A stretch of 64,000 nucleotides of DNA from Watersipora subatra. Its lineage: Eukaryota > Bryozoa > Gymnolaemata > Cheilostomatida > Watersiporidae. A program made the translations under genes and the position numbers. Positions 652 to 42,600 of this stretch are shown piece by piece (position 1 is the first letter of the stretch; the number at the start of each line of letters is the position of its first letter). The notes beneath the pieces were generated by a model that saw nothing but the letters and a program-made list of their open reading frames with translations, made no database searches and had not been told where the DNA came from. The stretch spans positions 19,299,243 through 19,363,242 of the forward strand of contig NC_088709.1 of assembly GCF_963576615.1 (NCBI RefSeq), given 5' to 3'.

Positions 652-2249
652 CATAACAAGCCACGTGGCTAATTTTATGTCATCATGGAGGCTAAACAAT
701 CCCAGCAAACCTTTCATCATGTTGCAGTGAGCGTGACATGCTTAAGCAATAGGCTTAGCTATGCGGACTCGGGGAGCTTGAGTAAATAGGGCAATGTTCA
801 GTGAATGGGATAGCTAACCAACATTAGTAAAATTCTCTCACGCTTTGTGTTTGTGTAACCGCTAACCAGTCATGTCAAACAGCCTGGATAATTCAGATTA
901 ATCTATATGAGTCTGGTCGGTGAATGGGACAGGCAAGAGTGCTACTATTGATTATAATTACTTTTTGAAATATTTGAAAGCCGCTCGTTAGACCTATGGG
1001 CAAATAGGTAATTTATATGCATGAGAAAAACCCAAGGAAATCAAACCGTATATTCTCATTAGTGCATGGCTGAATGTATCTGTTCAATCTGAACGAACCA
1101 CACTAGAAAAACTTTAACTAAATATTCAAGCATTTCAGAATGAAATAAATTTAATGTATTAAAGAAATTTTAAAATAAAGATAAATCTTTAGCAGTGCAA
1201 AAGAAAATTGACAAACTGAACATTAACACAGGGAGGCCTCGGGTTATGACGGTCTCCACTTTTCTGTTTCTACACTTCATCTTGACTCGCTGTTTCAAGG
1301 TCACAAACGACCCCCAAGAAAATATCTAAAGTAATATTTCATGTAGTTCTAGCCTAAAGTCATGTTTGATGTAAGCGATGGAAGCAATTGTGCACTAGTA
1401 TCCAGCACACAAGAGATGAATATGCTTTGTTGTACTCGTGGGGGCAAGACAGCATTAGGGCATCTCTCGGTGCTAATGGTATGCCATTTAGGTTGTTCTT
1501 GCCGGTTCTTGCTCCTTCTTTTGGTTGATTTTAAATATTTTTTTTCCTTTTTTAGTGCTCCAAAGCGCAAGGCAGATTTTTTTAATTGTAATGCATCCAG
1601 ATTGTAATGCATCCAGATTGTAATGCGTCAAAGAAAAGAATTCCATCACCATGTAAGACTGTAAGTGAAGCCAGATATTAATAAAAGTACAGAGTAGTCT
1701 AATCAGGATATTCCAACTTACACTGTTATTCAGGTTATATTGACTTTTAAGAGCCGATCAACTAAGTCAAGGACCCCTGTAGTTGAACACGTGAGCCAAC
1801 GTATCAGCAGAAGAGAAAAACATAGTGTTGAAGCACGAAGACTTGTCATTGGTTGCCAGAAGTTTCCAAAAAGCCTGTATTTACACCTGCAAGCTGCAAG
1901 CCAGCGGTAGATTCATTGCTATTGTCCCTTTTTATAGGGACTTTGTAATCTTTCTCACTTTTATCTTGCTTCCTAATAAAACACCTTACTATTACTCTTA
2001 CATACGGTGAACCAGCTCGGACTAGCTGATACCATAATGCAATAACACAGAGATGTCTAGACTACTAAGTGCATCAACGCTGTCGATTTGGAAGTGAAGT
2101 ATGTTACTAACAGACTTATTGGTGTCTGTTTATGCTGCATCTGTCAATCATCAGATAACTTTTATTATGTTCTTTAATTCTGATAAATATCGATCTTATG
2201 CAGTCATCCATCGATATGAACAGATGAATTTGGTAACTGGGATCCACTG
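652..2249. other. Non-coding stretch, presumed intron 5 of gene A
   Basis: I see no sulfotransferase exon on either strand here. Exons 6-8 of gene A, which should lie to the left of exon 5, are not found and must be outside the window. A short direct repeat (ATCCAGATTGTAATGC) occurs near 1591-1626. The open frames of 60-90 codons have no recognisable domain. Confidence 0.5.
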
Positions 2250-2735
2250 ATACCTAGTAGTATACAGTACCTTTGTCAGACCTACTAATAACTAGTAAGT
2301 ATGCAGTACCTTTGTCAGACCTACTAATAACTAGTAAGTATACAGTACCTTTGTCAGACCTACTAATAACTAGTAAGCATACAGTACCTTTGTCAGACCT
2401 ACTAATAACTAGTAAGCATGCAGTACCTTTGTCAGACTTACTAATATCTAGTAAGTATACAGTACCTTTGTCAGACCTACTAATAACTAGTAAGCATACA
2501 GTACCTTTGTCAGATCTGCTAATATCTAGTAAGTATGCAGTACCTTTGTCAGACCTACTAATATCTAGTAAGTATACAGTACCCTTGTCAGACCTGCTAA
2601 TATCTAGTAAGTATACAGTACCTTTGTCAGACCTACTAATAACTAGTAAGCATACAGTACCTTTGTCAGATCTGCTAATATCTAGTAAGTATGCAGTACC
2701 TTTGTCAGACTTACTAACACCTAGTAAATATGCAA
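2250..2735 (-). repeat. 39-bp minisatellite that continues from a splice donor
   Basis: About twelve units of 39 bp have cores reading GTACCTTTGTCAGA on the plus strand, at an exact 39-base spacing from about 2270 to 2700. On the gene A strand each unit reads GACAAAG followed by GTACTG, which closely resembles the real exon 5 donor (GGCAAAG then GTATTG, junction at 2739/2738). The genuine junction is in phase with the array: 2739 minus 2700 is 39. Because 39 is 13 codons, both strands stay open through the array, giving repetitive spurious frames. Confidence 0.92.
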
Positions 2736-2738
2736 TAC

Positions 2739-5700
2739 CTTTGCCGTCGACAAACCACTGGATGAAGTCAGCAAATTTGGTATCGGGAAAAAGTAACCTC
2801 AGCTTCATGAGAAAGGGAAATGCGCTGCAGACGGTATCTTTGGGATTTCTGTAGACTAGCACTATCTAAAGAAGAAGAACCCTGTACATTATCTTGCCTT
2901 GAATAACAAGCAGCTTCAAAATTGACTACAACACATGGACATGAGTGGCCATTTTGTAATGGAAGAAAAAGACTAGCGCATTTTGAGTAATCGTGTAAGT
3001 GCTTTTTTTAAATTAACAGAGAAATTGAGTCATTGCCACTAGAGTCAATGAATAAATCAACCTATCACCAAATGGTATCAGCAATAACAAGCATACCACA
3101 TTCCTATAATGCATACACTATAACATGCAAGTTTCCATAGTAACACGTAGCATAACATTTTAATAAATATTAGTCTCTACACCAAAATTAATTTCCAAAA
3201 CACACAAAATTGGTAGCTTTGTGAATCTCTGCAAGTGAAAGTGATAAAGATAGTGAAAAGTAAAAAACATAAACCAGTTAAAACTAATAAAAATACATAA
3301 GCTATGGTAGTTTAAACTTCGACTAGTATCTATCTTTAGACCTAACCATCACCTCTACCTTCAGACCTACCCATCACCTCTACCTTCAGACCTAACCATC
3401 ACCTCTACCTTCAGACCTACCCATCATCTATCCTAAAACCTACCCATAGCCGCTACCATTAGACCTACCCATCACCTCTACCTTTAGACCTACCCATCAC
3501 CTCTACCTTCAGACCTACCCATCACCGCTACCTTCAGACCTACCCATCACCTCTACCTTTAGACCTACCCATCACCTCTACCTTCAGACCTACCCATCAC
3601 CTCTACCTTCAGACCTACCCATCACCCCTACCTTCAGACCTACCCATCACCCCTATTTTCAGATCTACCCATGATCTATCCTAAAACTTATCCATAGCCG
3701 CTACCATTAGACCTACCCATCACCTCTACCTTCAGACCTACCCATCACCGCTACCATTAGACCTACCCATCACCTCTACCTTCAGACCTACCCATCACCG
3801 CTACCTTCAGACCTACCCATCACCTCTACCTTTAGACCTACCCATCACCTCTACCTTCAGACCTACCCATCACTGCTACCATCAGACCTACCCATCACCT
3901 CTACCTTTAGACCTACCCATCACCTCTCCCTTCAAACCTAGCTCCACCTCTACCTTCTACTTATCCATTACCAAACCAACATTTCTTTTCGTGTGTCTAA
4001 GGGGCACTAACAATAAAAATCTCTTTTTGTAAAATTCTCACTATATTAAATTACTTATTAGATGTAATTTAATTTTAACAGTTTTATTTAGTGCACTTGT
4101 TTTAACACATTGTGTACTTTTTGGTAGTCCCTATTAAGGAGTTGCCTTTGTTTTCCGAGTTGTAAAGCAAATTAAATGAATTACAGAGCATGTTTGCAGA
4201 AGTACAGTATATGAAGTAGACCTTGAAGCAGATTTACTTTGTATGTAAAAGTTTGACTAAATGCTTTTTCCAGATTTATATCTAAATGATCACATGGAGA
4301 TGTGAAGACTTTATCAATAGATTTGTTAGATATCTCGTTGGTAGGTGCTAATAACAGATTTGTCTAATAACAAGCTTTTCTCAACTAATAACAAGTTTCG
4401 GTAGGTAGCTTGGGCTGTTTTAAAATCTCGACTTTCAATGAGTGTTTTATCTGCCCTGCATGAATATTTAAAAAAACAGCATCACGGAAACTGAAAAGGT
4501 GATTTTTTCAATGGTTTCAGTAACTAAAGAAGCATTTTAGTTTTGCGTTATGACTTTTGCTAAAAACTAGTCACAAATAAAAATTGTTCGGACTTGAAAG
4601 CTGTTTTAGATTTGTATCTGATTTGCATAAAAAAGTGACTGATATTTTTAGTAAACTAATTTTAGAAAGCATCCTTTCAAGGGATGGATAAGAACTAAAG
4701 AAATTACTTTGAAGTGGCATATGACAGAAGAGACATCTCAGGGCAACATATTGAGACAATGCATATTAATGATGGCAATTAATACTAGTAAATATAGAAA
4801 GAATTTGATAATTCAAGGTCACCACACTTCCACCAATCACATAACAAAATCTTTAAACAAATGCCTTATACCAAACTTACTCATTTCTGCAATAGGTCTC
4901 AAAATCCTGCATAAACTACTATGCCCAAAATATTAGTATTTATCCTGCCACACAAATGACAAACAATGTTTTTCATTCTGCGACTCCAACATACTACATC
5001 CACGATTGTATGTTTCAGTTTATATGAACTTTCTGTTACTACAACCCTCAATTCACTATTACAACTCCACAATGCTGTTAGATTACCAACTTATATAACA
5101 CTTTTGCTTAACTCAATAACTCCTGATTTCTGTCTTCTCATTCCTGTTTTGGCATGTAAAGAAAAACATTATTTTGTTGATGATAACTCATGGCAATAAA
5201 AAACTCTACATGTACATTTGTAATTATAAAATACATTTGAGTTTATGTAGAAGCAAAACTTAGTTTTATAGCAATAAAGATAAGGTTAAGGTGGCTGAAT
5301 ATCAACTCTTTTACACTACTTGTCTTCTGCTATGTTACACCACAAGATTTCTGATATGCCACATACTGTAGTAACTTGTTGCTGTACTGCACAATAGCTC
5401 TGTTAAGGTTCTATTGAAAACTAGAAAGAAGGTTCTGGAAAATCCATGCTTTTCATCTGCTACTGATTACCTTTACTTTTCCCTTTTTAACTTTAGGAGG
5501 TAGTAAACTCCAAGGCAAGTGTGTGGCTATCATTCTTGGACTCAAATAGCTCTCAAAATCTTCTCCATTTTCTAAAACCCATAGTTCGTGTCAACATCAA
5601 AACTATACGAGTATCTACATGAGACTCCGGGAGTAAATGTTTGAGTATATCAACAGCAACATCTCCATAAAAGCATTTCTTGTCTATATAGACATGTGGA

Positions 5701-8700
5701 AAAATTTAGCACAGCATGAAAAGTTGCTGCACGAGAAAAAAAAGTATTCATTTGTAATTTTCAGCCGGTTCTAAAATTATATTGGTTATATTCGAGCTTG
5801 AACAAACTCTGCAAAATACTAAATAGCATTTAAACACATTTAATACAAATAGTTGGCAGATTAATACCAAGACATTCAGTGGAATTCTATACTTTCAGCT
5901 ACCAGAATAAACATTAAACATTGAAGACTAAAGTCTAACATTTGGGGGTTGTTCATATTGAAAGAGTTTTGCTTTTAATGTGCAGAATGATGAGTTGTCT
6001 ATCTGAAGACCATTCTAAAACATCTTTGTTAGTAAGCAACACATAACCAACATTCAAATTATTATTATAGCGTACTATTATAACTTATTATTATAACTTA
6101 CTACTATAACTTACTATTATAACTTCCTATTATAGCTTACTATTATAACTTACAATTATAACTTACTATTATAACTTACTATTATAGCTTACTATTATAA
6201 CTTATTATTATAACTTACTAATATAACTTATTATTATAACTTACTACTATAACTTACTATTATAACTTACTATTATAACTTACTATTATAACTTACTATA
6301 ATAGCTTACTATTATTACTTGCTTTTATAACTTACTATTATAATTTATTATTGTAACTTACTATTGTAACTTACTATGATAACTTACTATAATAACTTAC
6401 TATTATTACTTGTTTTATAACTTACTATTATAACTTACCATTATAACTTACTATTATAACATACTATTATAGCTTACTATTATAACTTACTACTATAACT
6501 TACCATTATAACTTACTATTATAACTTACTATTACAGCTTACTACTATAACTGACAGCCAGGATGTTTTAAGAGTAAGAGCGACAAAATTCACTCTCGAT
6601 TAAAAAGCTCAGAAGTAAATACATGTCGAAATGACATCACTAGAATCACGGCTGTCGGTCTCCCTTGTTATTGCTATAGGCTATTGTGCTAAAGTTGCAA
6701 TGTTCCGCGTCTTTATTCTGTCGATCTCTTTGACTAAGTGTAACTATAGATGTCATAATCGCACTTTTGCTTGATCTGAGTGTTTCAATGGCGATCAAGT
6801 TTTATCGCTTTTAATCTTGAAACATTCTATCTGTCAGATAGAAGCCAATAGCAAATGATAATAAAATATCGATACTTTCTGATAGAATCTACTAAAGTTT
6901 TGTGTAGGTTCATCGTAAATATCTGATCAGCAGATAACCAAAACTGATAAAAATCTTTTTAAATACTGCTGAGCCTCCACGTCTACTTGGGACGATGAAA
7001 ATGATAATTCATTTTAATGTTTTTATTGCGGACACCAGCTCTAGAATACTTGATGATCACTTTGGTAAAACTTTGGGGTGTATATGTGTGCCAGTTGAAC
7101 TTAGACTCATCTACTCTGACCAATGTTGTACATACAAAAACGTTTATGAAGATTTTAAATAAATATATTGTTATCCAGCAGTAAATCGTGACTTGAAAAA
7201 CAAGACAAGCTCAAAAACAAATCAGGTCAAGCAGGTCAATGATACACACAAAGTCTTGTTGTTATAGCTATGTAGCCTATTGTTGTTATAGCTATGTAGC
7301 CTACTATCTACTCAACTAACTAAAAAATTGAGAGTTCTAAGGGATGCTTTATTATCGCCTCGTTTTGCGTTGCTCGAAGCTTCTGAAAAACCTGGTTTAA
7401 AATAGCTCAATATTCCGCACAATAACAATATTATCACTAATATAATTATGGATGTATAGCCATCTCATCTCATTCTTCAGATACACATAGCCATGGAATC
7501 TAGGTCTATTATATGCTGCTGTCATCAACAGAAACACAGTTATATTGCCATTATCAAAAGTCAGCAAAGTTCAATTCTAGTTTAGTTGTTGTGTTGTTTA
7601 TTTATATTTATATATTTTATATACAGTGGTGTTTAAAAATAATGAACTGTTAAATTTTGCTGAGAAGCCCAATGTTTTAGGAGATTCAACCAGTTAGCTT
7701 TGAGTCAAACCTAGCAAAGGTAAATATCTTTAAAAAGTTTAAATAGTGTAGAATATATAGCTAGTTTAAAACTACTTAGATGTATGTTAATTCACACTCA
7801 TGCTAAAAATTATTAACAAAAATCATAACAAACCAGCAATAGCCCAATTTTCCAGTTTCAACTGCTCTAAAAATGTTAAAACAGCCCCATTTTCCTGTTT
7901 CACCGTATATGCCTGTATGAAATATCGCATACTCAGCAATTAAAATACGTAAATGGCAGCATGTCAACATCACATCACACAAAGGGTAAACAAGGAAAGC
8001 AAATCTATAACTTGTTTTAGCATACATCTAAGCATGAGTCTAAATTTGTTAAAATAATCCGGTCATATTTCCTTATAGCCATAGCAAGTAGTCCAATTTG
8101 AAAAATTTATTGTTATCTCTAATATTTTGATAAAGTTTCAATCTACAAGATCTGCATGAACACGCGCACGCTTATACTCCAAATGTTTCACCTGGAAATA
8201 AAATGGGATGCCTCTATGAAAATGTGATGCCTCTATGAAAATGTGATGCCCCTATGGCCAAAGAGTCTCTGGCATCTTTGATTCCCTTTTATTCTGAGCT
8301 GAATAGCAGTGTTGTTGATAATCAATACAAATATATTTGTTAACTATTTCTGATAAATTACACTCACGTTTCACGCTCTGGAAACCTGGTGGTGGTTTGA
8401 TCTCAAAAGATGATACTACCTTTGCTGTAGGTGTGTCATGCGGTAACAATCCTTTCTCTTTATATATAGACATTATGGTCTCCTTCACAAAGTGCGTGCC
8501 TAGAAGAACAGTTTAGCAGTTTTATGCATCAATCCATGATACCAAATGGCCACATATGCAGATATTTTTCCAATATATTTTTTGACATTCTATACTTGTA
8601 TCAAGAGCAGCCTGTTGCTGTAGTTTCATGCTTTTTTACGAGCTTTAAAAAAGGCTTTCTATTGTTTATTTTAGCCAATAGCACATTGTAATTGTTGCAT

Positions 8701-11616
8701 CATCATTGATCATCAACTTCCATCCATTTAATCAATCACTGTTCAAACGTATGACAAGTTTCAGACGATAGTTGTAGCTGGGGTCAAAAACTAGGAGAAA
8801 TTTCAGCTAGGCACTGTGAGGGCTTATCTTTTAGGTGATGGCTAGTATCAGCAGGTGTTTCGAATATTAACTCTCCCCACACTCCAATCCATCCGTGATG
8901 TTGAACCCTGTGTTTTGCAACTACAGAAGTTTATTATTTCCTACCAGAAATCAATTTGGAACCATAAATGATTTAGTCAGGACGTGGTTATTTTCCAAAA
9001 GGGTGTAAAACATACCTTGATATGCTACCAAGTGTAATGGTCTGAATGGTTTGATGTGTATTCTAAGGCTTTGTGTTAACTATTAAGCACTAGTATGCCT
9101 GCCAGTCCATGCAGTGTGAGAGATCTAGATGAGTATTCGGTATATGGAGAATGATCATATGAATTGGAAAGGCTCGCTAGTGGTGTAATGGTAGCCCGCT
9201 TGCCTTGAAATGCGATGTCCTGGGTTCGCTACCCATGCGAGGCAATCTTTTTTCCTAACGCTCTTAGCGTGGGTTCAGACAGACAAACAGACAGACAGGC
9301 TCTTATTATAGTAAAGTTTATGAAATATCTCTCAATTACAAACTGAATCAGTAAGTACATTCAACATACGATTAGGGAATATAACTGAGCTAAAGACAAA
9401 CTATTACTAACCCCTGTCTTAACATTAGTGTTAACTATATAGTGGGCTCTCACCATATGATTTTAATTTATTCTAGTGTTGGCATCATAAAGTGAAAATT
9501 TCATACTGAGGGGTATAGAAACCCATCGTGAATATCTAATGCAAACACCCCCTGGTGAACATGACAAAATTTTATAGATGTACCTTACATATTAAAAGTT
9601 AGTAACAACAAAATAATACGTTAACCTTAGTAACTATAGTTACGTAGAGTAACTTTTGTATACTCGGTGTATTTAGTAGTTATGATCTACAATAAAATGT
9701 AATGTTACAATGTACTATGTGCAGTACATACCGTAGGTAGTTCTCACCTTCAACATACATGTAAATTTAATATCTTACCTATAACATGAATGTTGAATTT
9801 AACATAAATGAATTTAGCTTGCTAAACAATTGCTTGAGGCTAAATTTTTTTTAGTATGTATTTTAAATATTTTACTGAACTTCAACTTTAACTGGTTATT
9901 CTTCAGAAAACCAGATATGATAATAATCGAATAGGTTGCTGAATGCAAGATTGAGAGAGTTTTAATCAACCATACTTTTCTGTCACTGTTGGCAATAAAC
10001 CTCAGACAGCACTTTCCTTTTTCAAGTGCATTACCTGTCTTAGGATAAGCAAGAATCATCAAATCATCTGGTCGAAAGTTGTCATACCTCTCACACGCCT
10101 TTAACCTCTCAAGATTATGTGCGAGCCCAGAGAACCGGTAGCCTTTGTAGTAAAACTTATCACACCCTCCATAAACATTTTTGGCCAACCCTACAAACAA
10201 TTAAACACTAGATTAAAAAACATGCAGCTCCTAGTAAACCAGAGCAGCTGGACTAACTCACTAATCATAGGACAATTTCAGGGAAACAGTCCCAACATCG
10301 ACAAGTCCGAACCTAGACAAGTCCCAATATCGACAGAGGTTGGTCCGAATCTAGACAAAGGTTGGTCCGAACATCGACAAAGGCTGATGCAGTTTTACAA
10401 TAATTTAATCTTCAACAAATAATAAATGTCTTTTTGCAGTTCTATTCTCACTTCAAAAAATAAAAATCAAAGCTACTCACTGAAATTTAGATTTCAAATA
10501 AAACATACTGCTAGCATAACAGCCAACCATATTTATGATTGTTACTTGTTTTAGCATTCGTTCTATATTTAGGTTGGGCAAAATATTGTTAGGCCTACAT
10601 AAGCTGGAGAGCGCTGCATCAAATGAATCACAAGATATTTTTGCGCAAATAAATCTTTTAAATATAAATCGCTCATTTACCATGAAAATAGTAGATGGTA
10701 AAATAGTAAAACTGCTGTCGAGATTGGACCAACCATTGTCGATATACAAACTCGTCGAGTTTCAAACCAGTTGAGGTTCGGACTATAAACCCAATTTCAT
10801 CACTGGCCTCGCTTCCAGAGTGTTGGTCTACTGTAATTTCCTATAATACCCTGTGAGAAGGTCAGCTGGGGCTCTGTTGAGGTGGTCTACAGACTTTAAA
10901 CTGATGTAGCGACAGGAGCAACTGTGGTTGGATACCATTACATACATTTCTAAAGCCACCAATGGTCATTGTGGGACTCATACCACTGATCTACTAATCT
11001 TAAGTCAGCACCCTACGCATTGAACGACAGCTGCTTCGTAGACCTACAGACCCATAGACCTCAGGATTGTACCAATAAATGCAGCATCATGAAAGTTTAA
11101 GGTGGTAGATTGTTTTTAGGCCTTCGTGTCAGTCGTTCTTGAGATTTTCTACTACTATCTGACTCTCTTGCAGATTCATCTCTAGGCTGACCTGCTATTT
11201 AAGCCTTTTATTAACTATATGGTGCTTACAAAGCTGATGGCACATAATATCCTATTTTCATCAAGCAAGTTTTACGGTGAAGAGATGAAACTTGTTTACA
11301 CCTTTAGCCCGCATTGACAACCTTTCACACGGTTAAATGTATGTGACTAAGTAACCCATTGCTGGAACCAAGAGATTAGTTTAACGTTTAAATTATTTGA
11401 TGCATCTGGTCACTAGTTAATCACAGAAATGAATGGAAAGTGACTTGGTATATGCATTCTCAGCAGAAGCGTGAACATATATAAATAAACGTGTGAGCAG
11501 TTCAGTAATTTGGAGGGTGTTCCTGGCTTACCAAAGTAAAGTTTGATGCGATCAACTAGTTGTCTGCTGTATAGTAGCAGATACATTATAAATATTCTCA
11601 TCTCAGTCCAAAACAT
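2739..11616 (-). CDS. Sulfotransferase gene A (5' five exons; 3' end off window)
   Basis: This gene encodes a cytosolic-type sulfotransferase, which moves a sulfuryl group from PAPS to a small acceptor. The minus-strand exons, in coding order, are 11532-11616, 10035-10190, 8368-8499, 5471-5571 and 2739-2865. All have AG acceptors and GT donors, with phases 1,1,1,0,1. The proposed start gives MFWTEMRIFIMYLLLYS, a hydrophobic stretch followed by RQLVDRIKLYFG; a second Met lies five codons later. Exon 2 ends in AYPKTG and exon 3 continues THFVKETIMSIYK, which is the 5'-phosphosulfate loop. Exon 4 holds the catalytic His in MIATHLPWSLLPP. Exon 5 holds VYRNPKDTVCSAF, the 3'-phosphate site with Arg and Ser. 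Exons 6-8, with the GxxGxWK motif, are not in the window. The acceptor substrate cannot be told from sequence. Exon 1 is the least certain part. Confidence 0.87.
3337..3950. repeat. 25-bp minisatellite in gene A intron 4
   Basis: About 25 imperfect units of ACCTACCCATCACCTCTACC plus TTCAG run head to tail. Variants include TTTAG for TTCAG and CACCGCTACCATTAG. Two divergent units near 3424-3460 and 3665-3700 (CATCTATCCTAAAACC type) mark an internal duplication about 240 bp apart. It is strongly strand-asymmetric, with almost no G on the plus strand. Confidence 0.9.
3951..5470. other. Rest of gene A intron 4, nothing recognised
   Basis: AT-rich sequence between the 25-bp array and exon 4. Both strands were read for sulfotransferase motifs, transposon ends and tandem repeats, and nothing convincing was found. 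Confidence 0.5.
6060..6552. repeat. 13-bp AT-rich minisatellite in gene A intron 3
   Basis: About 37 units of TTACTATTATAAC (13 bp) with scattered substitutions (TATTATAGC, TACTATAAC, TATTGTAAC). The array abuts the truncated side of the second MITE copy, which begins at about 6553. Confidence 0.9.
6553..6990 (-). mobile_element. Palindromic MITE, copy 2 (inverted relative to copy 1)
   Basis: The reverse complement of this segment aligns along its whole length with bases 1-437: both start TCCCAAGTAGACGTGGAG and both reach ACATCCTGGC...TCAG. The second arm seen in copy 1 (about 437-530) is missing here, so this copy is truncated where the 13-bp array begins. The copies lie in opposite orientation and flank exons 4 and 5 of gene A. 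Confidence 0.8.
6991..8199. other. Gene A intron 3 remainder
   Basis: No exon or transposon was recognised. A 27-bp segment containing TTGTTATAGCTATGTAGCCT is present twice in tandem at about 7257-7305. Confidence 0.5.
8200..8257. repeat. Short 19-bp tandem repeat, three copies
   Basis: Three head-to-tail units of AAAATGTGATGCCTCTATG (the first with GGGATG) lie in gene A intron 3, about 110 bases downstream of the exon 3 donor. Confidence 0.8.
9171..9315 (+). mobile_element. tRNA-derived SINE (copy 1)
   Basis: The head resembles a tRNA. GGCTCGC at 9171-9177 pairs 6 of 7 with GCGAGGC at 9237-9243, a box A-like TAGTGGTGTAATGG begins at 9179, and a T-arm/box B GGGTTCGCTACCC lies at 9222-9234. 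The anticodon arm is degenerate, so this is not a working tRNA. The body continues with a CAATCTTTTTTCC motif, a CAGACAGACA run and the tail GGCTCTTATTATAGTAAAG. The same post-tRNA motif and tail recur in the minus-strand copy near 49086-49215. It sits in gene A intron 2. Confidence 0.72.
9316..10034. other. Gene A intron 2 remainder
   Basis: No gene or mobile element recognised. This AT-rich stretch runs up to the donor of gene A exon 2. Confidence 0.45.
10288..10386. repeat. Short tandem repeat around GACAAAGGTTGGTCCGAA
   Basis: Four to five imperfect units of about 20-25 bp contain CGACAA/TAGACAA followed by GGTTGGTCCGAA or AGTCCGAA. They lie in gene A intron 1, about 100 bases upstream of exon 2 on the gene strand. 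Confidence 0.6.
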
Positions 11617-19000: not shown

Positions 19001-22000
19001 AAACGATATCAACCATTATCAACAAACGATATCAACCATTATCAACAAACGATATCAACCATTATCAACAAACGATATCAACCATTATCAACAAACGATA
19101 TCAACCATTATCAACAAACGATATTGTAAGATTAACACTAACGTACTGAACAGGACATAAAGTGAGAGTTCTTTCTGGGATGCTCTTGAAGCCTCACAAT
19201 ACATAAAACAACTGGATGGCTGTCATTTTACAGGATAAAAAAATACATGTAAACCACTGGTTTTTAGCCTGTACGACAATGTTTTATTACTGCCTGCGCG
19301 GTTTCATTCCTAATCACAATTGAAAGATCTACCCTCAGGTAACCGAAATATTAAAAAAAACTTATGAATGTGATGTTTTTTTGTGACAGAAAACAGATAT
19401 ACCTGCAATGTAGACCCTTGTACCAATATGAATATTTAAGTAGTTCATGATGACATAAAAGTTGAAAGTTGGCTGTACAATGAAAGGTTTTCATAACTAA
19501 AGGTACATCTAAGGATATGCTAGTTGATTCTCCTTTCATGATACAGCTATAAAGATGTCTTCTACACAGGTGAACACAGCAACTCCGAAACAATGGCTCC
19601 TTTGCAGTGTGTTCGCAGCTCATGTAACTGAGCAAAGATGATTGAGAAGGCAATCTTCATGCAATATGTGTCGGTTTAATTTGTAGGTGATACATTGCTA
19701 TAGAAATCCTAAAGATGTTGTATGCAGCATGTTTCCGTTTTTGAAAAAAATGGGAGCTATTGCTCCAAATGTCAGCTGGAATGAATTCTTCTATTGGTTC
19801 ATGGAGGGAAATGGTAAGGATACTGCTTAGAATGGTGATAGCTCAATAGTGGTCAGTTGAAAGTGATTGTATGGTACTTGGTATCATCTGTTGAAAGTGA
19901 TTGTATGTTACTTGGTATCGTGTGTTGAAAGTGATTGTATGGTACTTGTTATCGTGTGTTGAAAGTGATTGTGTGGTACTTGGGATCGTCTGTTGAAAGT
20001 GATTGTATGGTACTTGGGATCGTCTGTTGAAAGTGATTGTATGGCACTTGGTATCGTGTGTTGAAAGTGGTTGTATGGTACTTGGGTAAGAGTATTGTCG
20101 GGATATATAGAAAGTATGACCTTAGGTTTTACAAATCTGCAGGTATCTGTTGGCTTGTTTTTAAAAGCTGCTCATAGATTGCACAATGAAATGTTTGTAG
20201 AAAGGCATCACTGTTCTATTTCCAGACAGTATACTAAAATATGTTTATTTAGTGTTACAAGTCTTAATCTAACAATAAGTTATTACTTTTTGTGATGTTA
20301 GTGTGCAATAACAGATAATTTCATTCTTTTTGTTATTAATGGCAATCATTCTTATAGGAAATAAATCAATTTGAGATCATTTTCAATTCTTTAAATAATT
20401 ATAAGGAAAAATGTAGTTTTAACTGCAAACTTTTTGTTATAGTTATTCCTGGAAGCTACTTCAAGTTCCTTAAAGAGTGGTACCCATACAGAAACAACCC
20501 CAACATGCTGACCCTACAGTTTGAGGATATGAAAAAGGTAATCATATGGGAGCAACCTCAGAAAGTAGCAGATTAGTAAAATCACTTACTGTATGATATA
20601 CCATGTCATTTCTAAACTTACTACTAATCATGTACTGTATATATCATGTCATCTATAAATTACTACTAATCATGTACTGTATATATCATGTCATCTATAA
20701 ATTACTACTAATCATGTACTGTATATATCATGTCATCTATAAATTACTACTAATCATGTACTGTATATATCATGTCATCTATAAATTACTACTAATCATG
20801 TACTGTATATATCATGTCATCTATAAATTACTAATAATCATGTACTGTATATATCATGTCATTTCTAAACTTACTACTAATCATGTACTGTATATATCAT
20901 GTCATCTATAAACTTACTACTAATCATGTACTGTATATATCATGTCATCTATAAATTACTACTAATCATGTACTGTATATATCATGTCATCTATAAATTA
21001 CTACTAATCATGTACTGTATATATCATGTCATCTATAAACTTACTACTAATCATGTACTGTATATATCATGTCATCTCTAAACTTACTACTAATCATGTA
21101 CTGTATATATCATGTTATCTATAAACTTACTACTAATCATGTACTGTATATATCATGTCATCTCTAAACTTACTACTAATCATGTACTGTATATACCATG
21201 TTATCTATAAACTTACTACTAATCATGTACTGTATATATCATGTCATCTCTAAACTTACTACTAATCATGTACTGTATATACCATGTCATCTCTAAACTT
21301 ACTACTAATCATGTACTGTATATATCATGTTATCTATAAACTTACTACTAATCATGTACTGTATATATCATGTTATCTATAAACTTACTACTAATCATGT
21401 ACTGTATATATCATGTCATCTATAAACTTACTACTAATCATGTACTGTATATACCATGTTATCTATAAACTTACTACTAATCATGTACTGTATATATCAT
21501 GTCATCTCTAAACTTACTACTAATCATGTACTGTATATATCATGTTATCTATAAACTTACTAATAATCATGTACTGTATATACCATGTCATCTATAAACT
21601 TACTACTAATCATGTACTGTATATATCATGTCATCTATAAATTACTACTAATCATGTACTGTATATATCATGTCATCTATAAATTACTACTAATCATGTA
21701 CTGTATATATCATGTCATCTCTAAACTTACTACTAATCATGTACTGTATATATCATGTCATCTATAAACTTACTAATAATCATGTACTGTATATACCATG
21801 TCATCTATAAACTTACTACTAATCATGTACTGTATATATCATGTCATCTCTAAATTACTACTAATCATGTACTGTATATATCATGTTATCTATAAACTTA
21901 CTACTAATCATGTACTGTATATATCATGTTATCTATAAACTTACTACTAATCATGTACTGTATATATCATGTTATCTATAAACTTACTACTAATCATGTA

Positions 22001-25000
22001 CTGTATATATCATGTCATCTCTAAACTTACTACTAATCATGTACTGTATATACCATGTCATCTCTAAACTTACTACTAATCATGTACTGTATATATCATG
22101 TTATCTATAAACTTACTACTAATCATGTACTGTATATATCATGCTATCTATAAACTTACTACTAATCATGTACTGTATATATCATGTTATCTATAAATTA
22201 CTACTAATCATGTACTGTATATACCATGTCATCTCTAAACTTACTACTAATCATGTACTGTATATATCATGTTATCTATAAACTTACTACTAATCATGTA
22301 CTGTATATATCATGTCATCTATAAATTACTACTAATCATGTACTGTATATATCATGTCATCTCTAAACTTACTACTAATCATGTACTGTATATACCATGT
22401 CATCTCTAAACTTACTACTAATCATGTACTGTATATATCATGTTATCTATAAACTTACTACTAATCATGTACTGTATATATCATGCTATCTATAAACTTA
22501 CTACTAATCATGTACTGTATATATCATGTTATCTATAAATTACTACTAATCATGTACTGTATATACCATGTCATCTCTAAACTTACTACTAATCATGTAC
22601 TGTATATATCATGTTATCTATAAACTTACTACTAATCATGTACTGTATATATCATGTCATCTATAAATTACTACTAATCATGTACTGTATATATCATGTC
22701 ATCTATAAACTTACTACTAATCATGTACTGTATATATCATGTCATCTCTAAACTTACTACTAATCATGTACTGTATATATCATGTTATCTATAAACTTAC
22801 TACTAATCATGTACTGTATATATCATGTCATCTCTAAACTTACTACTAATCATGTACTGTATATACCATGTCATCTCTAAACTTACTACTAATCATGTAC
22901 TGTATATATCATGTCATCTCTAAACTTACTACTAATCATGTACTGTATATACCATGTCATCTCTAAACTTACTACTAATCATGTACTGTATATATCATGT
23001 TATCTATAAACTTACTACTAATCATGTACTGTATATACCATGTCATCTCTAAACTTACTACTAATCATGTACTGTATATACCATGTCATCTCTAAACTTA
23101 CTACTAATCATGTACTGTATATATCATGTCATCTCTAAACTTACTACTAATCATGTACTGTATATACCATGTCATCTCTAAACTTACTACTAATCATGTA
23201 CTGTATATACCATGTCATCTATAAACTTACTACTAATCATGTACTGTATATATCATGTCATCTCTAAACTTACTACTAATCATGTACTGTATATACCATG
23301 TCATCTCTAAACTTACTACTAATCATGTACTGTATATATCATGTTATCTATAAACTTACTACTAATCATGTACTGTATATATCATGCTATCTATAAACTT
23401 ACTACTAATCATGTACTGTATATATCATGTTATCTATAAATTACTACTAATCATGTACTGTATATACCATGTCATCTCTAAACTTACTACTAATCATGTA
23501 CTGTATATATCATGTTATCTATAAACTTACTACTAATCATGTACTGTATATATCATGTCATCTATAAATTACTACTAATCATGTACTGTATATATCATGT
23601 CATCTATAAACTTACTACTAATCATGTACTGTATATATCATGTCATCTCTAAACTTACTACTAATCATGTACTGTATATATCATGTTATCTATAAACTTA
23701 CTACTAATCATGTACTGTATATATCATGTCATCTCTAAACTTACTACTAATCATGTACTGTATATACCATGTCATCTCTAAACTTACTACTAATCATGTA
23801 CTGTATATATCATGTCATCTCTAAACTTACTACTAATCATGTACTGTATATACCATGTCATCTCTAAACTTACTACTAATCATGTACTGTATATATCATG
23901 TTATCTATAAACTTACTACTAATCATGTACTGTATATACCATGTCATCTCTAAACTTACTACTAATCATGTACTGTATATACCATGTCATCTCTAAACTT
24001 ACTACTAATCATGTACTGTATATATCATGTCATCTCTAAACTTACTACTAATCATGTACTGTATATACCATGTCATCTCTAAACTTACTACTAATCATGT
24101 ACTGTATATACCATGTCATCTATAAACTTACTACTAATCATGTACTGTATATATCATGTCATCTCTAAACTTACTACTAATCATGTACTGTATATACCAT
24201 GTCATCTCTAAACTTACTACTAATCATGTACTGTATATATCATGTTATCTATAAACTTACTACTAATCATGTACTGTATATATCATGTCATCTCTAAACT
24301 TACTACTAATCATGTACTGTATATACCATGTTATCTATAAACTTACTACTAATCATGTACTGTATATATCATGTCATCTCTAAACTTACTACTAATCATG
24401 TACTGTATATACCATGTCATCTCTAAACTTACTACTAATCATGTACTGTATATACCATGTTATCTATAAACTTACTACTAATCATGTACTGTATATACCA
24501 TGTCATCTCTAAACTTACTACTAATCATGTACTGTATATATCATGTTATCTATAAACTTACTACTAATCATGTACTGTATATACCATGTCATCTCTAAAC
24601 TTACTACTAATCATGTACTGTATATACCATGTCATCTCTAAACTTACTACTAATCATGTACTGTATATATCATGTCATCTCTAAACTTACTACTAATCAT
24701 GTACTGTATATACCATGTCATCTCTAAACTTACTACTAATCATGTACTGTATATATCATGTCATCTCTAAACTTACTACTAATCATGTACTGTATATACC
24801 ATGTCATCTCTAAACTTACTACTAATCATGTACTGTATATATCATGTCATCTTTAAACTTACTACTAATCATGTACTGTATATACCATGTTATCTATAAA
24901 CTTACTACTAATCATGTACTGTATATATCATGTCATCTCTAAACTTACTACTAATCATGTACTGTATATACCATGTCATCTCTAAACTTACTACTAATCA

Positions 25001-26205
25001 TGTACTGTATATACCATGTCATCTATAAACTTACTACTAATCATGTACTGTATATATCATGTCATCTCTAAACTTACTACTAATCATGTACTGTATATAC
25101 CATGTCATCTCTAAACTTACTACTAATCATGTACTGTATATATCATGTTATCTATAAACTTACTACTAATCATGTACTGTATATATCATGTCATCTCTAA
25201 ACTTACTACTAATCATGTACTGTATATACCATGTTATCTATAAACTTACTACTAATCATGTACTGTATATATCATGTTATCTATAAACTTACTACTAATC
25301 ATGTACTGTATATACCATGTTATCTATAAACTTACTACTAATCATGTACTGTATATACCATGTCATCTCTAAACTTACTACTAATCATGTACTGTATATA
25401 TCATGTTATCTATAAACTTACTACTAATCATGTACTGTATATACCATGTTATCTATAAACTTACTACTAATCATGTACTGTATATATCATGTTATCTATA
25501 AACTTACTACTAATCATGTACTGTATATATCATGTCATCTCTAAACTTGCTACTGTGTATTTTGTATTTTCTTTTTTGTATTATAGAAGTTGTATTGTTT
25601 TAATACTTGAAGAAATATATTTGTCTATGTATTTTTTTCAGTTTGCAAGCATGTCTATACTATGGCACAGTCGATATACTAGCAATAGTACAAGTAGTTT
25701 CTTCTGACAATCATGTTGGTTTAGCTTTTGGAAAGGTTTGCGTTTTAGGAGTTGTGTTATCTTAACAAAGTTATTCATTTATTACAGGATCTAAAATCAA
25801 ATGTTGAAAGAATAGCCGAGCTCCTTGATGTAAAGTTGTCTCCTCAACAATTGGAAACTATTGTAACTGGCAACACCTTTGAAAATAAAAAGAAGGAATT
25901 AGGAAGTAACCATCCAGTCTATAGAAAAGGTAAAAAGCAATCTAGTAAAACTTGAATGTTAATTTTCTTGAGATTGGGTTTTAAAATTTGATTTTACTAT
26001 AGTCCATGGTTGGACAGTAAAGGTGATGGCATAAGTGGAATTCATATTCTATCTTCTATTGTCAAGGTTACACTAACAAACCTTATCTGTAGGCAAAACT
26101 GGTGGATGGAAATCAGACCTCACTGTAGAGCAGAATGAGATGCTGGATGAGTGGATCCAGCGAGAGATGGAGGGGTTGGAGGAGCTGCCGATGCACTACG
26201 AGTAA
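13041..26205 (+). CDS. Sulfotransferase gene B, complete, 8 exons, 312 aa
   Basis: A PAPS-dependent cytosolic-type sulfotransferase. Exons are 13041-13128, 13988-14143, 15522-15644, 16188-16282, 19687-19813, 20443-20537, 25788-25929 and 26093-26205. They total 939 nt with GT/AG boundaries and consistent phases, ending ELPMHYE-stop. The N-terminus (MGLLVELKMYVLLKFLSFLQ then VFRRFKIRLG) is hydrophobic then basic. The 5'-phosphosulfate loop TYPKTGTNF is at residues 77-85, where family members usually have TTW. The catalytic His is about H138 in FVSHLPLDLF. The 3'-phosphate motif YRNPKDVVCS gives R160 and S168. GKTGGWK (276-282) fits GxxGxWK, and KSDLTVEQNE (282-291) fits the KxxxTVxxxE dimer motif. 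Length is near the usual 290-310 plus the extra N-terminus. The acceptor substrate is unknown. The start is chosen because the first exon has the same 88-nt length and phase as in gene C. Confidence 0.93.
13510..13690. mobile_element. Small MITE with CCTGCCAAC ends
   Basis: A 181-bp segment is bounded by the perfect 9-bp inverted repeat CCTGCCAAC (13510-13518) and GTTGGCAGG (13682-13690). The interior holds several CTCACGC/GCGTGAG motifs and no coding frame. It lies in gene B intron 1. No target duplication is clear, so the superfamily is not assigned. Confidence 0.6.
14371..14776. mobile_element. TTAA-flanked MITE with 55-bp inverted ends
   Basis: TTAA at 14367-14370 and 14777-14780 flank a 406-bp element. 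Its ends, GAGCAGCACTCCGRGGCAG onward, match as inverted repeats over about 55 bp (14371-14425 and 14722-14776) with a few mismatches. TTAA target duplication is the hallmark of the piggyBac superfamily, so this is probably a non-autonomous relative. It lies in gene B intron 2. The homologous intron of B' (37256-37690) lacks it, so it inserted after the B/B' duplication. Confidence 0.75.
14994..15160 (+). mobile_element. Half copy of the TTAA element nested in the hAT transposon
   Basis: This stretch, ending ATTTTGTTGCAAATCAACCT then TTAA, aligns closely with 52421-52586, the right arm of the inverted-repeat element nested in the hAT transposon. Both contain TAACTGTTCGTTTTTGA and GTAAGACATGG. 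No left arm is found upstream, so it is truncated or a solo end. It lies in gene B intron 2. Confidence 0.65.
16375..16450. mobile_element. Tiny hairpin MITE (76 bp)
   Basis: The ends CCTTTATTTGAACGCC (16375-16390) and GACGTTCAAATAAAGG (16435-16450) are inverted repeats matching 15 of 16. The interior starts with ATGACGCTCTATTTTTCAA, which is also found at 17646-17664 inside the related element at 17603-17723. It lies in gene B intron 4. Confidence 0.6.
16451..17602. other. Gene B intron 4, nothing recognised
   Basis: AT-rich sequence between two small MITEs. No exon or tandem array was found on either strand. Confidence 0.45.
17603..17723. mobile_element. Related hairpin MITE with ATACTGTA ends (121 bp)
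   Basis: The terminal inverted repeat ATACTGTA (17603-17610) and TACAGTAT (17716-17723) continues imperfectly inward (GGTCAAATAAAAGTGCC against GGCAGTCAAATAGAAG). It shares the inner ATGACGCTCTATTTTTCAA with the 16375 element. The TA at the ends would suit a Tc1/mariner-type MITE, but this is not proven. Confidence 0.55.
18533..19125. repeat. 23-bp minisatellite in gene B intron 4
   Basis: About 25 very uniform units of AAACGATATCAACCATTATC plus AAC (23 bp). The only frequent variant is CTATT for CCATT, plus one CAAATGATATC. High identity suggests recent expansion. The 205-codon open frame through it is low complexity and arises because three units equal 23 codons without a stop. Confidence 0.93.
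19856..20090. repeat. 34-bp minisatellite at the start of gene B intron 5
   Basis: Seven units of GTTGAAAGTGATTGTATGGT plus ACTTGGTATCGTGT begin about 42 bases after the exon 5 donor (19813/19814). The same intron in gene A (intron 5) also starts with a tandem array, although of a different unit. Confidence 0.88.
20584..25555. repeat. Large 43-bp satellite array filling gene B intron 6
   Basis: About 115 units of 42-43 bp span nearly 5 kb. The core is TACTACTAATCATGTACTGT followed by ATATAYCATGTYATCTMTAAACT. Four main variant positions (ATC/ACC, GTC/GTT, TCTC/TCTA, AAACTT/AAATT) mix along the array. A rare CATGCTATC unit occurs at 22141, 22483 and 23384. About 900 bp following 22483 repeats unit for unit after 23384, which is a higher-order duplication. 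The array begins about 47 bases after the exon 6 donor and ends about 230 bases before the exon 7 acceptor. Confidence 0.95.
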
Positions 26206-35235: not shown

Positions 35236-37183
35236 ATAATTGCACACTAGATTGCCAGGGTACTATTTTGTACAGCAATATCAATAGATTCGAGTTTGAG
35301 AAATAAGCTACAGACATCAACGCTATTAAAATTTTAGTTACTAAAGCCTTATTGATTGGTTAATTCAATTGTATTTACACCATCGACATAATTTTATATA
35401 CAAATGGTACCACTTTTTCTCAATCAAATTTTGTTGTAGAAAAATTGGCACAAAGGTGCAAAGGCTATCGTTACACATCAAATCATAGACAGATCAAACC
35501 AAAATACGTAAAGCTGTGCATGTATGAGTAACCTTTCATTGATTATCATCAACAAAATGATGGTTTTTGTAACGTACCAAAATAGAAAAAACGAACAGAC
35601 AGAGATCAGGAATTATTGAGCAAGTTGAACAGATGTGTTTTAAAAGTTGGTAATCTAATAGTATTGCGAAGGAGTAGAAATAGTGAATTGAAGGTTGTAG
35701 TAACAAAGTTTATAAACTGAAACACATGATAGTGGATGTAGTATGTTGGTGTCATAGAATAGAGAATGATGTTTGTCAGATGCATGGCAGGAGAAATATA
35801 TATGGTAAAACCTCAAATGTGGCAGGATAAATACAAATATTCTGGTCATAGTTTACCCAGAATTTGGAAACGTGTAAGATAAATGCAGAATTGAGCAAGG
35901 AAACGTATTCATGTCATAATATAAACCTAATATTTACTATTTCTACTATGAATAATTTATATACAGCAAATATAAATATGAAGTTTCTATGTCTGTTAGT
36001 GGATATAAAAAGAGTTTGGTCGCTTGAGACTCCAGCAGATGTTATAATGAGTGTAACCGGCTGTTAATCCTAAAGCTTGTGACAGATTTGCAGCCACAAT
36101 TGTTTCCCATTTATTGGACTTCTCTTAGCCAAATAAAAAAAATACATTGATATGTGTGTAGCTCAGAGAAAAGGAGGTATCATACCTTTTATGATATGAT
36201 ACCTTTTACTCATAAAAGATGATCTATGATGATCTATGATCTTCAATATTCGTCTGGCAGTCATATCAGATGAATTTTGAAGGTTTGTCTCTATGGGTGA
36301 CTTCATGAACTTAGCTAGTTGTATAACTTATACCAAGGACAGGACTTGCTCACATTATTCAAGGAAAAAAACAAGCAATCCACTAAAAGCAATAGACCAT
36401 CAATTCCTCTTTCGTGAACCTGTTTAAACACACTAGGTTGTTTTCTAACTATACAATTGTTTCCAAGTAAAACTCATAAACGCTTATGCAGCTGACCCCA
36501 CTGTTTTGGACTTCACCTCCCCGAACTTTCAATTGTTCGAAAACATCCATGGTCTGTACAAGTGTCCAATGCAGTCCAAATTTGTCCGAAGAATGACAAC
36601 ATTGCCTGATAAGTGGCTGTCTTGATAGACGACGCAAGCTATGCCTGCGCATGGATTTTCCACAAGAGCATTATTACTGCGATTAATATTATACTGTACC
36701 CTTTTGCAGATATAATCATATTTTAATCTCTCATTTAATGTTGTATATGAATATTAATACTATATTTTAGGCTAGAAGTATGTGTATGAGACAACAGGCT
36801 GTTTAATGTACAGTAGCCACTTTTCAATTTTTGGACATTTTCAATCCCCAAAAAATGGTCTAGTCTGTATTAGTCTGAACAAATGAGAGTTGTTTGTAAG
36901 ATTACTAGGCACTTTATGAGTGACTAGCCAGTAGTCGAGTGTCCATTCCTGCACTGCTACAGATAATCTACTTCCCTAGCATTATGCACCTGCATGTAGC
37001 TGTAATGTAATACACGTATACATTGTGTGTCACTCACAGCATCTCTATGTCTGAGCTCCCTTGGTTTGACAACTTCGCTGCTTAATGAGCTGGTATATTT
37101 ATTTTTAATCTAAATCTCAACTTCAGGGACTACTGGTCATCCACATAACTAATAGTTCATTGTTAACACCGTTACTCTGTCAA
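35236..37183. other. Sequence inserted in or unique to the B' locus
   Basis: This stretch has no counterpart in gene B between exons 1 and 2. I see a short dyad-rich patch near 36175-36240 (TATCATACCTTTTATGATA) and no gene. Confidence 0.4.
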
Positions 37184-37690
37184 GGGTTAAGGCATGTGAG
37201 AGTTATGAAAGGTTCAGACCTGATGATGTCATAATAGTGACCTTCACTAAAACAGGTATGAAGTAGGATCTTTGTTTGTTCTACTACTGTTATTGTTTGG
37301 CAACACGATTAACGGTCTTTGATGAACGGTCTTTGATGAATGCATTGTGTTCAAATTTTCGTGCACTACTGCATGTCATTCATTAGACTCATATTCTAAA
37401 CCATTGCACTGTCTAGACAATGCCTAATTGTTTAGAGTGTTTGACCTTCAATGAGGTTGTTACACTTGAGATGAACTCACACTTTTTGCTAAAAAAAAAA
37501 CTTTTTATGTACAGAAGCTCAGAAAAGTCTGTGTACGTCGTCTATCTCCGTTTGTACGCTGAGTAATTCTCTGTATGTCTACAGATAAAATAAAAACTGT
37601 CATCTGTTTATGCAAAAGTCTGTAGTGGGGCAAGATCATGACCTTTATGCTGTACTGTTGCTATAGTGATGTATTGTAAAGAGGCCTTTA

Positions 37691-39675: not shown

Positions 39676-42600
39676 CTATTCATAGCACATCGGTAGATCC
39701 TCCAATCCTTCCATCTCTCGCTGGATCCATTCATCCATCATCTCATTCTGTTCTACAGTCAACTCTGATTTCCATGAACCAACTTTACCTGAATGACAAA
39801 GATTTGAGTTTGGCTACATTGTTTTTAACAAGACTAGCTATCCGTGAGACAATAATTACAACTTTGAAATGATCAGTTTACCCCAAACTACTCATAGCTA
39901 TACCATGTATCAGCAATGAGACATGTTAAAGTCACAAATTATAAACAGTATTTCAGCGCTATTCACAGGATAAAATGGTTTCAGAAAGTATCCGTAATCT
40001 CTCTAACGTCTGTTCATTCCACTCAATCAATAACAAATCAATCAATTCAATCAACAACAGAGCTTGCAGAAACCATTAAGTCTGTTATGTTGGACAACCG
40101 ATGAATTTAAACCATGCCTTATTGAGAGCTCTGTTTGCGCTACCGTGGATTTTTAAATAGTACATTTGCTTTTCAAGTGAGAAGCCAGAATTTTGTACAC
40201 TGATGAATTTTATTATAAGAGTATTTCATTTATTTCTTAACATGTGTATATGTTGACAGCATTTGAGACATCTGGTGGTAAACAATGGTTCTAAGCTGGG
40301 CAAATATGAAGAACAAGAAAACTAATTGCCTTTTACAAGAGTAAAGTTAGCCAGAGACCTCAAGGACATTTATATAACACCTTGACCTTCACACCTAAAT
40401 TTCTGACAGTATTTATTCGATTGTCACCAATGAAATGGTCGATAGCATATAGGTTAATGTATGGTAAGATCGCTGTCTGACCTAGACTCACCGAAATAAT
40501 TAGGCAACAAGTGTGCAAACTATATGATATATATCATGCCATACATATTATATATGATACGATATAGAGACAGTCATGTAATGATGAATTTTTAGCTTAA
40601 AGAAAAGATGCGATAATAAAATAGCATAACTCATCATGAAATATACTTTAACAAGTGATAATACCAGGGAGTATGTAGGAATTTGTGTACATGGAGAGAT
40701 AATTCGAAACATCTCTAAACAAGTCATCACTTTTTGTTACAAATAAGTTAGTTATTAAACACTTGCATACATCCTATAATGAAAATAAAATGTCCACTTA
40801 GCAGACTAACCAGCAAACAACAGATTGGGGTTTAATTTCCAAACTGGGTCACAAGCAGTGAAAAAAATGACATCCAATTGCCTTTAGCAACTGGGTATGT
40901 CTCCAGCTGTTGAGGCTCTCTTGTCACTAGACTTAGACATGTCTAGCCAAAGTCACAAAACCATTGTTGGTGCAGGAATGCTCCTAAAACACCCACAGCC
41001 TTTGCTTGCATTACGCTCAGCAGACAGCGCAGTCAGCCTTTTCAGGATTCCTCACACATCATAACTAGCATTAAGGTCTATACTAGTAAGTTGGTAATAC
41101 ATCTTAGGGATAAAAAGAACGCAACTAGGTCATCAATTGCTAAGCCAGACATTCACTAACCTTTCCTGTATACAGGATGATTCTTTCCTCTCTCTTGTTT
41201 CTTGTTCTCAAAAGTGCTGGCAGCTACGACAGCGTCCAGTTGTCGTGGTGTTATTTTAATATTAAGGAATTCAGCTATTCTCCTTACATTTTCTTTCAAG
41301 TTCTGTAAAAATAGACACTCAGCTATACATCAAATTAAACTAAGCAGAGCCTTGTCTAACATTCATCTCACGCATGAATGTAATACAGAGTAAATGGAGG
41401 TTACAGAATATCTAAGGAGACAAAACACAGACATACTGTGGACGTAGTCTTAGTAAACTATGTGTTGGAATCACCTGCTTTGAGCTTCCAATGGATTATG
41501 TTTGAAAATTTTCACTGAAATGATTACGTAAGTATTAAGCTACATGTAAATAGGTGGCCAAGTTATACAAGCTTCAAGGTTATACATGTATAAGCTGGAT
41601 ATTTGAAGTTATCTGCTCTTTTCTTCAAGGATAATTTTAGCCTGGTTCCAGTCTTTAGCAGCAGGTTCACTTTAATCATGGTTATCTCAGTTCTTAAAAA
41701 AGTTTTTTTTAAATATTTTACATTTTAGGGCTGTCCTTCATAAGATCATGAATATTATCGCTACGCAAGTCGTAATCAAAGTTGCAACCAAAAGTAAGCT
41801 GAAACTCAATATTTTTAGAGACAGATAACCAAATAACTCAGCTATCACATACAATACATTATCACACATGATGCTACAGTATATAGGACAGGTAGCGCCT
41901 TTTCCTTATCTGATACTACAGCATTAAAAAGACGACTCCGAAACTGTAAGCTAACCATTATATTCTAACCAACAAAACTCCATTAATGACCAACACACTG
42001 AGGTTGAAAACCAAAGAGGCATGAAACAGATACTTTGGGCTATTTCTGGGTGCAAACCAGATGTCTTTGTAGCAACATGCTACCACTGAATCCTTATGTT
42101 TTTCTAGACTGATAAACATGCATCATTCCAAATTTCATGTAAAGGAGGTGAGAGGTAAAGCAAGAGTTCTCGAAAAAGAATTATATTGTGTGACTTACAG
42201 ATCTCTTCTGTAAGAGTCTAATTACAGGTGCGTCAATATATTTTGTTAAACTAGCATAAAGCTACATGAATATGCCCTTTATTCTATTCTATGCTATGCT
42301 CTGCTATGCTTAGCTGAATGCTAAGCTGTATGACTTATGAAATCAATATGAGGCTACAATTGGTCAATAGCTATACTAACCTATCAAACAACAGAAGCTC
42401 ATGAGATAATTTTCCGTGGTTAAAGAGGGCTATGTAGAAGTAGTATTGCTGTTTCACATCTTCTACACAAGAATAACTTTGGGAGAGGAGATAATGTAGC
42501 AGTAGTATTGCTGTTTCACACCAGCTACACAAGAATAACTTTAGGAGAGAAGACAATGTAGAAGTAGCATTGCTGTTTCACATCTTCTACACAAGAATAA

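Follow-up and report, generated by a model that had tools for sequence, protein, structure and literature searches.

The closest described relatives of the element reported here are the amphioxus 'mirage' minisatellites of Adh3, the globins, TnC and PGBD5, in which many copies carry splice signals and whose units span 10–72 bp in Adh3 (PMC3087553, PMC3902484). According to the available sections of these papers, units at the edge of a mirage escape homogenisation, 5′ as well as 3′ borders can be duplicated, and the arrays are said not to interfere with regular splicing, although one of the two mentions a possible role of copies as cryptic sites (PMC3087553/PMC3902484). A comparable element was found in a 64,000-nt stretch of the bryozoan Watersipora subatra (the window; contig NC_088709.1, i.e., C2:19299243-19363242 of the 784-Mb genome; coordinates without a prefix are window positions, and L002 is the neighbouring sequence to its left), which holds most of a cytosolic sulfotransferase (SULT) gene, gene A, on its minus strand. 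Intron 5 of this gene opens with a 39-bp array (array A) that resembles the mirages, as far as these are described in the sections available, in its boundary-spanning unit, its retained splice signals and its homogenised interior from which the edge unit is excluded, but differs from them in having a unit that is a multiple of three with an open frame (PMC3087553, PMC3902484). Judged by its sequence, array A is very probably a junction-born mirage minisatellite that stays mostly silent in splicing.

In the AGGT-duplication model, a duplicated AG/GT segment (the slash marking the splice junction) supplies extra splice signals. Intron gain through tandem duplication of AGGT segments has been reported (PMC4974935). 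Array A is like that model in that duplicated AG/GT adds splice signals, but unlike it in that no new intron is seen, the junctions being duplicated within an existing conserved intron. Human segmental duplications contain internal tandem repeats (minisatellite units of ~30 bp) that likewise lie at exon-intron boundaries and change splicing; the altered human introns described in that report are backed by RNAs, whereas array A is known here from genomic sequence alone (PMC2812944). Intronic variable number tandem repeats that affect splicing, i.e., TERT VNTR6-1 (PMC11830802) and the ABCA7 repeat (PMC5954066), share with array A their position inside introns and are variable in length, but, unlike array A, they are not described as donor copies in the available parts of those reports. 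No mirages under that name were found outside amphioxus in the literature searched, subscription papers being largely outside its reach. What is new is the occurrence of several mirage-type arrays in one animal genome, one of them in frame: they repeat the donors of two SULT exons and of one myosin exon, and at one SULT acceptor the intron side. The mirage class itself was already known from amphioxus.

A 39-bp array built on the exon 5 junction

An initial annotation, made from the letters of the window, had read the exon 5 donor of gene A as one register of a 39-bp array. This was borne out by Tandem Repeats Finder (TRF), by the table of units and by alignment of the junction, and the donor-copying array in gene A is confirmed as real. 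Its parts are as follows:

2739..2865, minus strand: exon 5 of gene A, 127 nt, phase 1, coding for IVLVYRNPKDTV...FVDGK, with its AAAG end at 2739
2733..2741, minus strand: native donor of exon 5, AAG/GTATTG, with the last exon base at 2739
2246..2743, minus strand: 39-bp minisatellite of 12 full units and a broken 13th (TRF period 39, 12.8 copies, 91% matches)
2265..2702, minus strand: twelve donor copies, with last-base positions 2700, 2661, 2622, 2583, 2544, 2505, 2466, 2427, 2388, 2349, 2310 and 2271
2254..2256, minus strand: first in-frame stop past the native donor, inside the broken unit 13 (+482)

The array starts within the exon, at its final five bases CAAAG, and runs into the native donor GTATTG, so that unit 1 holds the exon 5 donor (2739/2738). 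The further donors follow at exact 39-base steps, as first annotated, and GT is kept in register in all twelve; the sequence AAG/GTACTG, initially given for every copy, holds for eleven, while the copy at 2583 reads AGG/GTACTG. The frame of exon 5 is open from 2865 to the stop at 2254, and 12/12 copies share the phase of exon 5 and lie upstream of this stop, so the expectation that any copy would preserve the phase also stood. When the 784-Mb genome was searched for the unit pattern (≤3 mismatches), all 11 matches fell in array A.

The TRF unit, whose consensus includes unit 1, matches the exon 5 junction at 24/29 bases, 5 of them exonic, a match equalled by none of 1000 shuffles and by none of 54 other donors from the ten SULT genes that were modelled (A, B, C and E in or beside the window, F to K elsewhere; by homology only). 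The unit consists of 5 exon and 34 intron bases and hence lies across the exon-intron boundary. Since exon ends of the form GGN-AAN-G are seen in paralogs that lack this array, the exon is the source of the unit. Unit 1 is the most diverged, with 5–8 differences to the other units compared with 0–5 among those others, and internal units are identical in two sets (2=6; 3=7=10); a diverged first unit together with identical internal ones is the usual mark of internal turnover. In the scenario that we favour, a 39-bp segment that joined the final 5 nt of exon 5 to the initial 34 nt of intron 5 was duplicated head to tail and then expanded, as the sequence shows. Each unit thereby carries an AAAG/GTAYTG junction (AAGG in one unit). 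The original exon-side junction would still be the working donor and the remainder intron, the copies would be silent or rarely used decoys, and every copy would keep the phase simply because the unit length is a multiple of three.

RNA folding of the array was no better than that of shuffles (z –0.85; 19/100 shuffles as good), and the probability that the 9 donor bases are unpaired was 0.001–0.034 over the 13 units of array A, with a median of 0.016 in 54 other donors. Rfam returned nothing at gathering scores. A Pfam match of the array peptide to SUKH/SMI1_KNR4 (E 1.3e-7 and 2.3e-7) was rejected as a repetition artefact, since permuted-unit control arrays (four used of nine permutations made) also matched Pfam families in 4/4 cases, and in three of these the best E-value was lower than that of the array (1.4e-18 at the extreme). 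On the plus strand, 2294-2684 reads CTA/GTAAGT in 7 units and CTA/GTAAGC in 4; these donor-like sites outscore the sense-strand donors on a human-type matrix.

Arrays at other splice borders of the genome

Three further arrays were found to repeat one side or both sides of a splice border:

C2:12006279-12006416: SULT gene F, exon 5 and downstream (L028), a 22-bp × ~35 array repeating the gene's own exon 5 donor junction
C1:74420518-74421347, minus strand: myosin-head exon (L064) with a 30-bp × 9 array repeating the junction CTACCAG/GTGRTAGACAT
SULT gene K, exon 5 (L043): 33-bp × 6.7 array ending 4 nt before the acceptor, repeating the intron side of the acceptor in 4 copies

Gene F lies at 12.0 Mb on C2, and its exon 5 is 49% identical to that of gene A. 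Its 16-base junction recurs in 27 copies at ≤4 mismatches, and among the 55 modelled SULT donors only F5 and A5 have at least two self-copies (2/55), in each of the three windows of comparison. None of 29 gene F copies gives an in-frame, stop-free extension (0/29); two of them (ATG/GTAAGT) score 5.59, above the 3.20 of the native site, yet are frame-breaking. In a sample of 20 exons taken from 75 myosin-head matches, with a donor-like GT scoring >0 near the match end in 15 of the 20, the L064 exon has 8 self-copies of its junction, while the other 19 have 0 or 1. Its copies are not usable in frame (0/6), yet three of the six GT copies (CAG/GTGATA) score 4.37 vs. 1.19 for the native CAG/GTGGTA and are located past a stop. 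Since such F and myosin copies outscore the native donors and would break the genes if readily used, they are presumably ignored as a rule, which suggests that junction copies are normally passed over by splicing.

The gene K array is the acceptor-side counterpart. With an intron-only window the K5 acceptor shows its 4 self-copies. Among the 45 acceptors compared (those of exon 4 excluded), one exon-inclusive window gave 2 chance-level matches at H8, and a second exon-inclusive window gave no acceptor with at least two self-copies. Because their unit lengths and sequences differ, the junction arrays of A, F, the myosin exon and K look like separate births.

Not every array near a donor copies it. 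The arrays near the donors of B5, B6, F7, I4, J5 and J6 gave junction alignments no better than shuffles. One of them, a 43-bp × 116 array at 20596-25554, fills most of gene B intron 6 and starts 59 nt past the donor, and by junction alignment its unit does not copy that donor. Introns with an array of ≥60 bp starting ≤60 nt from the donor numbered 6/51 vs. 2.03 expected (P 0.0057), with P values of 0.34, 0.69, 0.015 and 0.0045 at cuts of 10, 30, 100 and 150 nt. On the acceptor side, 3 were found vs. 2.01 expected at 60 nt (P 0.31) and 2 vs. 0.38 at 10 nt (P 0.05), the P values at 30, 100 and 150 nt being 0.29, 0.16 and 0.46. A donor-directed birth of arrays was not retained as an explanation: the counts are post hoc and do not establish such a process.

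Arrays of this kind, with donors of near-equal strength, amount to natural experiments in spliceosome choice and offer three contrasts, i.e., near-equal in-frame copies in gene A, a few stronger but frame-breaking copies in gene F, and stronger, stop-interrupted copies in the myosin exon. Should splicing pass over even the stronger copies, donor sequence would count for less than position and exon context.

Donor strength, the state of gene A and the competing explanations

A species donor matrix was built from 53 of the 55 modelled SULT donors, with A5 and F5 left out. On this matrix the native donor of gene A scores 3.65 and the AAG/GTACTG copies 3.20; 17 of the 55 modelled donors score below the native site and 11 below the copies, and ~2% of 15,328 GT sites reach the score of a copy. 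Scored with such a model, as had been proposed at the outset, the copies are therefore donor-like and within the range of modelled SULT donors. On the human-type matrix the native donor (–0.27) and the copies (0.39) are both weak, ten other donors ranging from –1.20 to 7.68.

Sulfotransferases carry an R-K-G-x-x-G-x-W motif that has a role with respect to 3′-phosphoadenosine 5′-phosphosulfate (PAPS). At this place gene A reads YRNGKAGG-stop: a TAG in its last exon replaces the conserved Trp and RKG has become RNG, so that the segment is not intact, whereas R-K/R-G and the W are kept in 8/8 other joined SULT genes (i.e., those with exons 5–8 placed). The host gene thus appears to lose function in this assembly, the loss of activity being presumed from these changes. 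Exon 8 of gene A is 95% identical at the DNA level to that of gene C (39706-39789), compared with 54–64% for exons 5–7; exon 8 is the most conserved of the exons compared in each of the six gene pairs, at 76–86% in the other five. Given this 95% identity, the lesion looks recent, or else may reflect an allele or a mistake in assembly. It makes a role of the array in the protein less likely, although silence of the gene does not follow. Gene conversion could also account for the A/C similarity of exon 8, though this exon is the best kept in every pair.

Several points weigh against the silence or the junction origin of array A. The copies nearly equal the native site in score, and the sole other comparable site from –130 to +700 (CAG/GTCTGA, 2.80) itself lies within unit 4, which makes some use of the copies plausible. 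All twelve are in phase, unlike the copies in the sister arrays. In 66% of the intron changes caused by human boundary repeats, according to the available text, there were also transcripts in which the repeat remained exonic, so that some use of the A copies is conceivable (PMC2812944). Moreover, 27/29 gene F copies are weaker than the native F donor, the F and myosin genes are assumed to work from their open exons only, and the unit has only 5 exonic bases in common with exon 5. The same 5 bases could be taken to mean that an ordinary intronic minisatellite came to abut the exon by accident, without any origin from the junction; the window is indeed rich in arrays (43 TRF rows), and several others begin 39–59 nt past SULT donors without copying them. 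Such an accident would nevertheless leave the in-register match across the junction, equalled by no shuffle and no other donor, as a coincidence, and gene F offers a more extended example of such copying, which makes this explanation hardly credible.

The initial annotation had gone further and proposed that the array tunes protein isoforms. Several repeat donors would then be used to give a sulfotransferase with n × 13 additional residues, inserted after exon 5 as n × GTVYLLVISRSDK, and array length would set the range. This draws on the twelve in-phase copies before the first stop, on copy scores inside the range of modelled donors, on the presence in gene A of an exon 6 with a matching phase-1 acceptor, and on the human boundary repeats that can stay in exons (PMC2812944). 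However, a stop-free 39-bp period in one frame has a chance of ~0.12 (1/3 × 0.348), and codon variants among the units in the gene frame (4 synonymous and 7 replacing, with ~28% synonymous expected) give a weak indication, variants being few, that there is no codon constraint on the encoded repeat. The sister arrays, with 0/29 and 0/6 usable copies, could not work in this way, and the amphioxus mirages are reported, in the sections available, not to interfere with splicing (PMC3087553, PMC3902484). Gene A itself has the exon 8 stop and has lost the RKG lysine, and use of the farthest copy would make an exon 5 of 595 nt (127 + 12 × 39). Isoform tuning is disfavoured on these grounds: use of several repeat donors is unlikely, and a functioning series of in-frame donors of near-equal strength with 13n-residue inserts, in which array length differs between individuals, would be decidedly improbable. 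A different question is whether gene A is a pseudogene, unexpressed or in decay, in which relaxed constraint let the array arise as a side effect. The TAG at a Trp kept in all eight other joined genes, and YRNG in place of R-K/R-G, would fit this, but exons 2–7 are open with normal splice sites, exon 8 past the stop is still 95% like that of gene C (so that decay would be recent, or the lesion an allele or assembly error), and the same type of array occurs in gene F, which is intact at these sites; we regard it as a serious possibility that falls somewhat short of being probable. A mostly silent, junction-born mirage is the reading that we prefer for array A.

Gene structure and further features

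The identification of gene A as a SULT gene was upheld by a Pfam match and by exon structure. Exon 5 alone matches Sulfotransfer_1 at 23.2 bits (cut-off 22), the whole 203-amino-acid frame including the array scores 19.8 bits, and the exon 5 stretch reached 19.7 in the genome-wide PF00685 search, under the cut-off. Exons 2–8 were found by homology; besides exon 5, these are:

10035..10190, minus strand: exon 2, with the YPKTG loop and donor CAG/GTAATG; start inferred from the acceptor
8368..8499, minus strand: exon 3, donor AAAC/GTGAGTG, inferred from phase
5471..5571, minus strand: exon 4, donor AAG/GTAATC; start placed by eye from acceptor and phase
L002 6630-6536, minus strand: exon 6, by homology, left of the window
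L002 4491-4350, minus strand: exon 7, by homology, left of the window
L002:3560-3657, minus strand: exon 8, by homology, with TAG at the conserved Trp, left of the window

The phase-1 acceptor of exon 6 matches the end of exon 5. Across the modelled genes, GT is present at the homologous exon 5 end in 10/10 and AG at 45/45 acceptors checked; in the nine joined genes exon 5 is 127 nt, exon 6 is 95 nt and intron 5 is in phase 1 (9/9), whereas exon 7 measures 142 nt in eight of them and 145 nt in the ninth. Because the exons were placed by homology, their lengths are not independent evidence; the canonical splice signals present there are. The modelled set leaves out most of the 160 PF00685 matches as well as L026 (a weak exon 5 match with a stop), and exon 3 in G and H, exon 2 in I, and exons 3, 7 and 8 in K were not placed. 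In a protein tree of nine SULT genes, the sole supported grouping was G with H, which says little about A and F. On the plus strand at 37177-37266 lies a lone SULT exon 2 with FTKTG for YPKTG, likely a relic, and the start of the intron that follows it resembles that of gene B.

Genome searches for the GFP family and for mollusc-type haemocyanin gave no match, and both were silent in the control genomes too, so absence is not shown and the missing GFP-family match is a weak hint at most against a lancelet host; a COX1 search of the genome gave no match either. Of two muscle-myosin exons, the first has its best scores with scallop chains and the second gives a near tie of squid, scallop and Myosin-6, both weak hints as to the host. 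Finally, 601-650 of the window holds, by eye, a palindrome (CAAAGATTTCATCACCTAAATG-6 bases-CATTTAGGTGATGAAATCTTTG) that may belong to a small mobile element.
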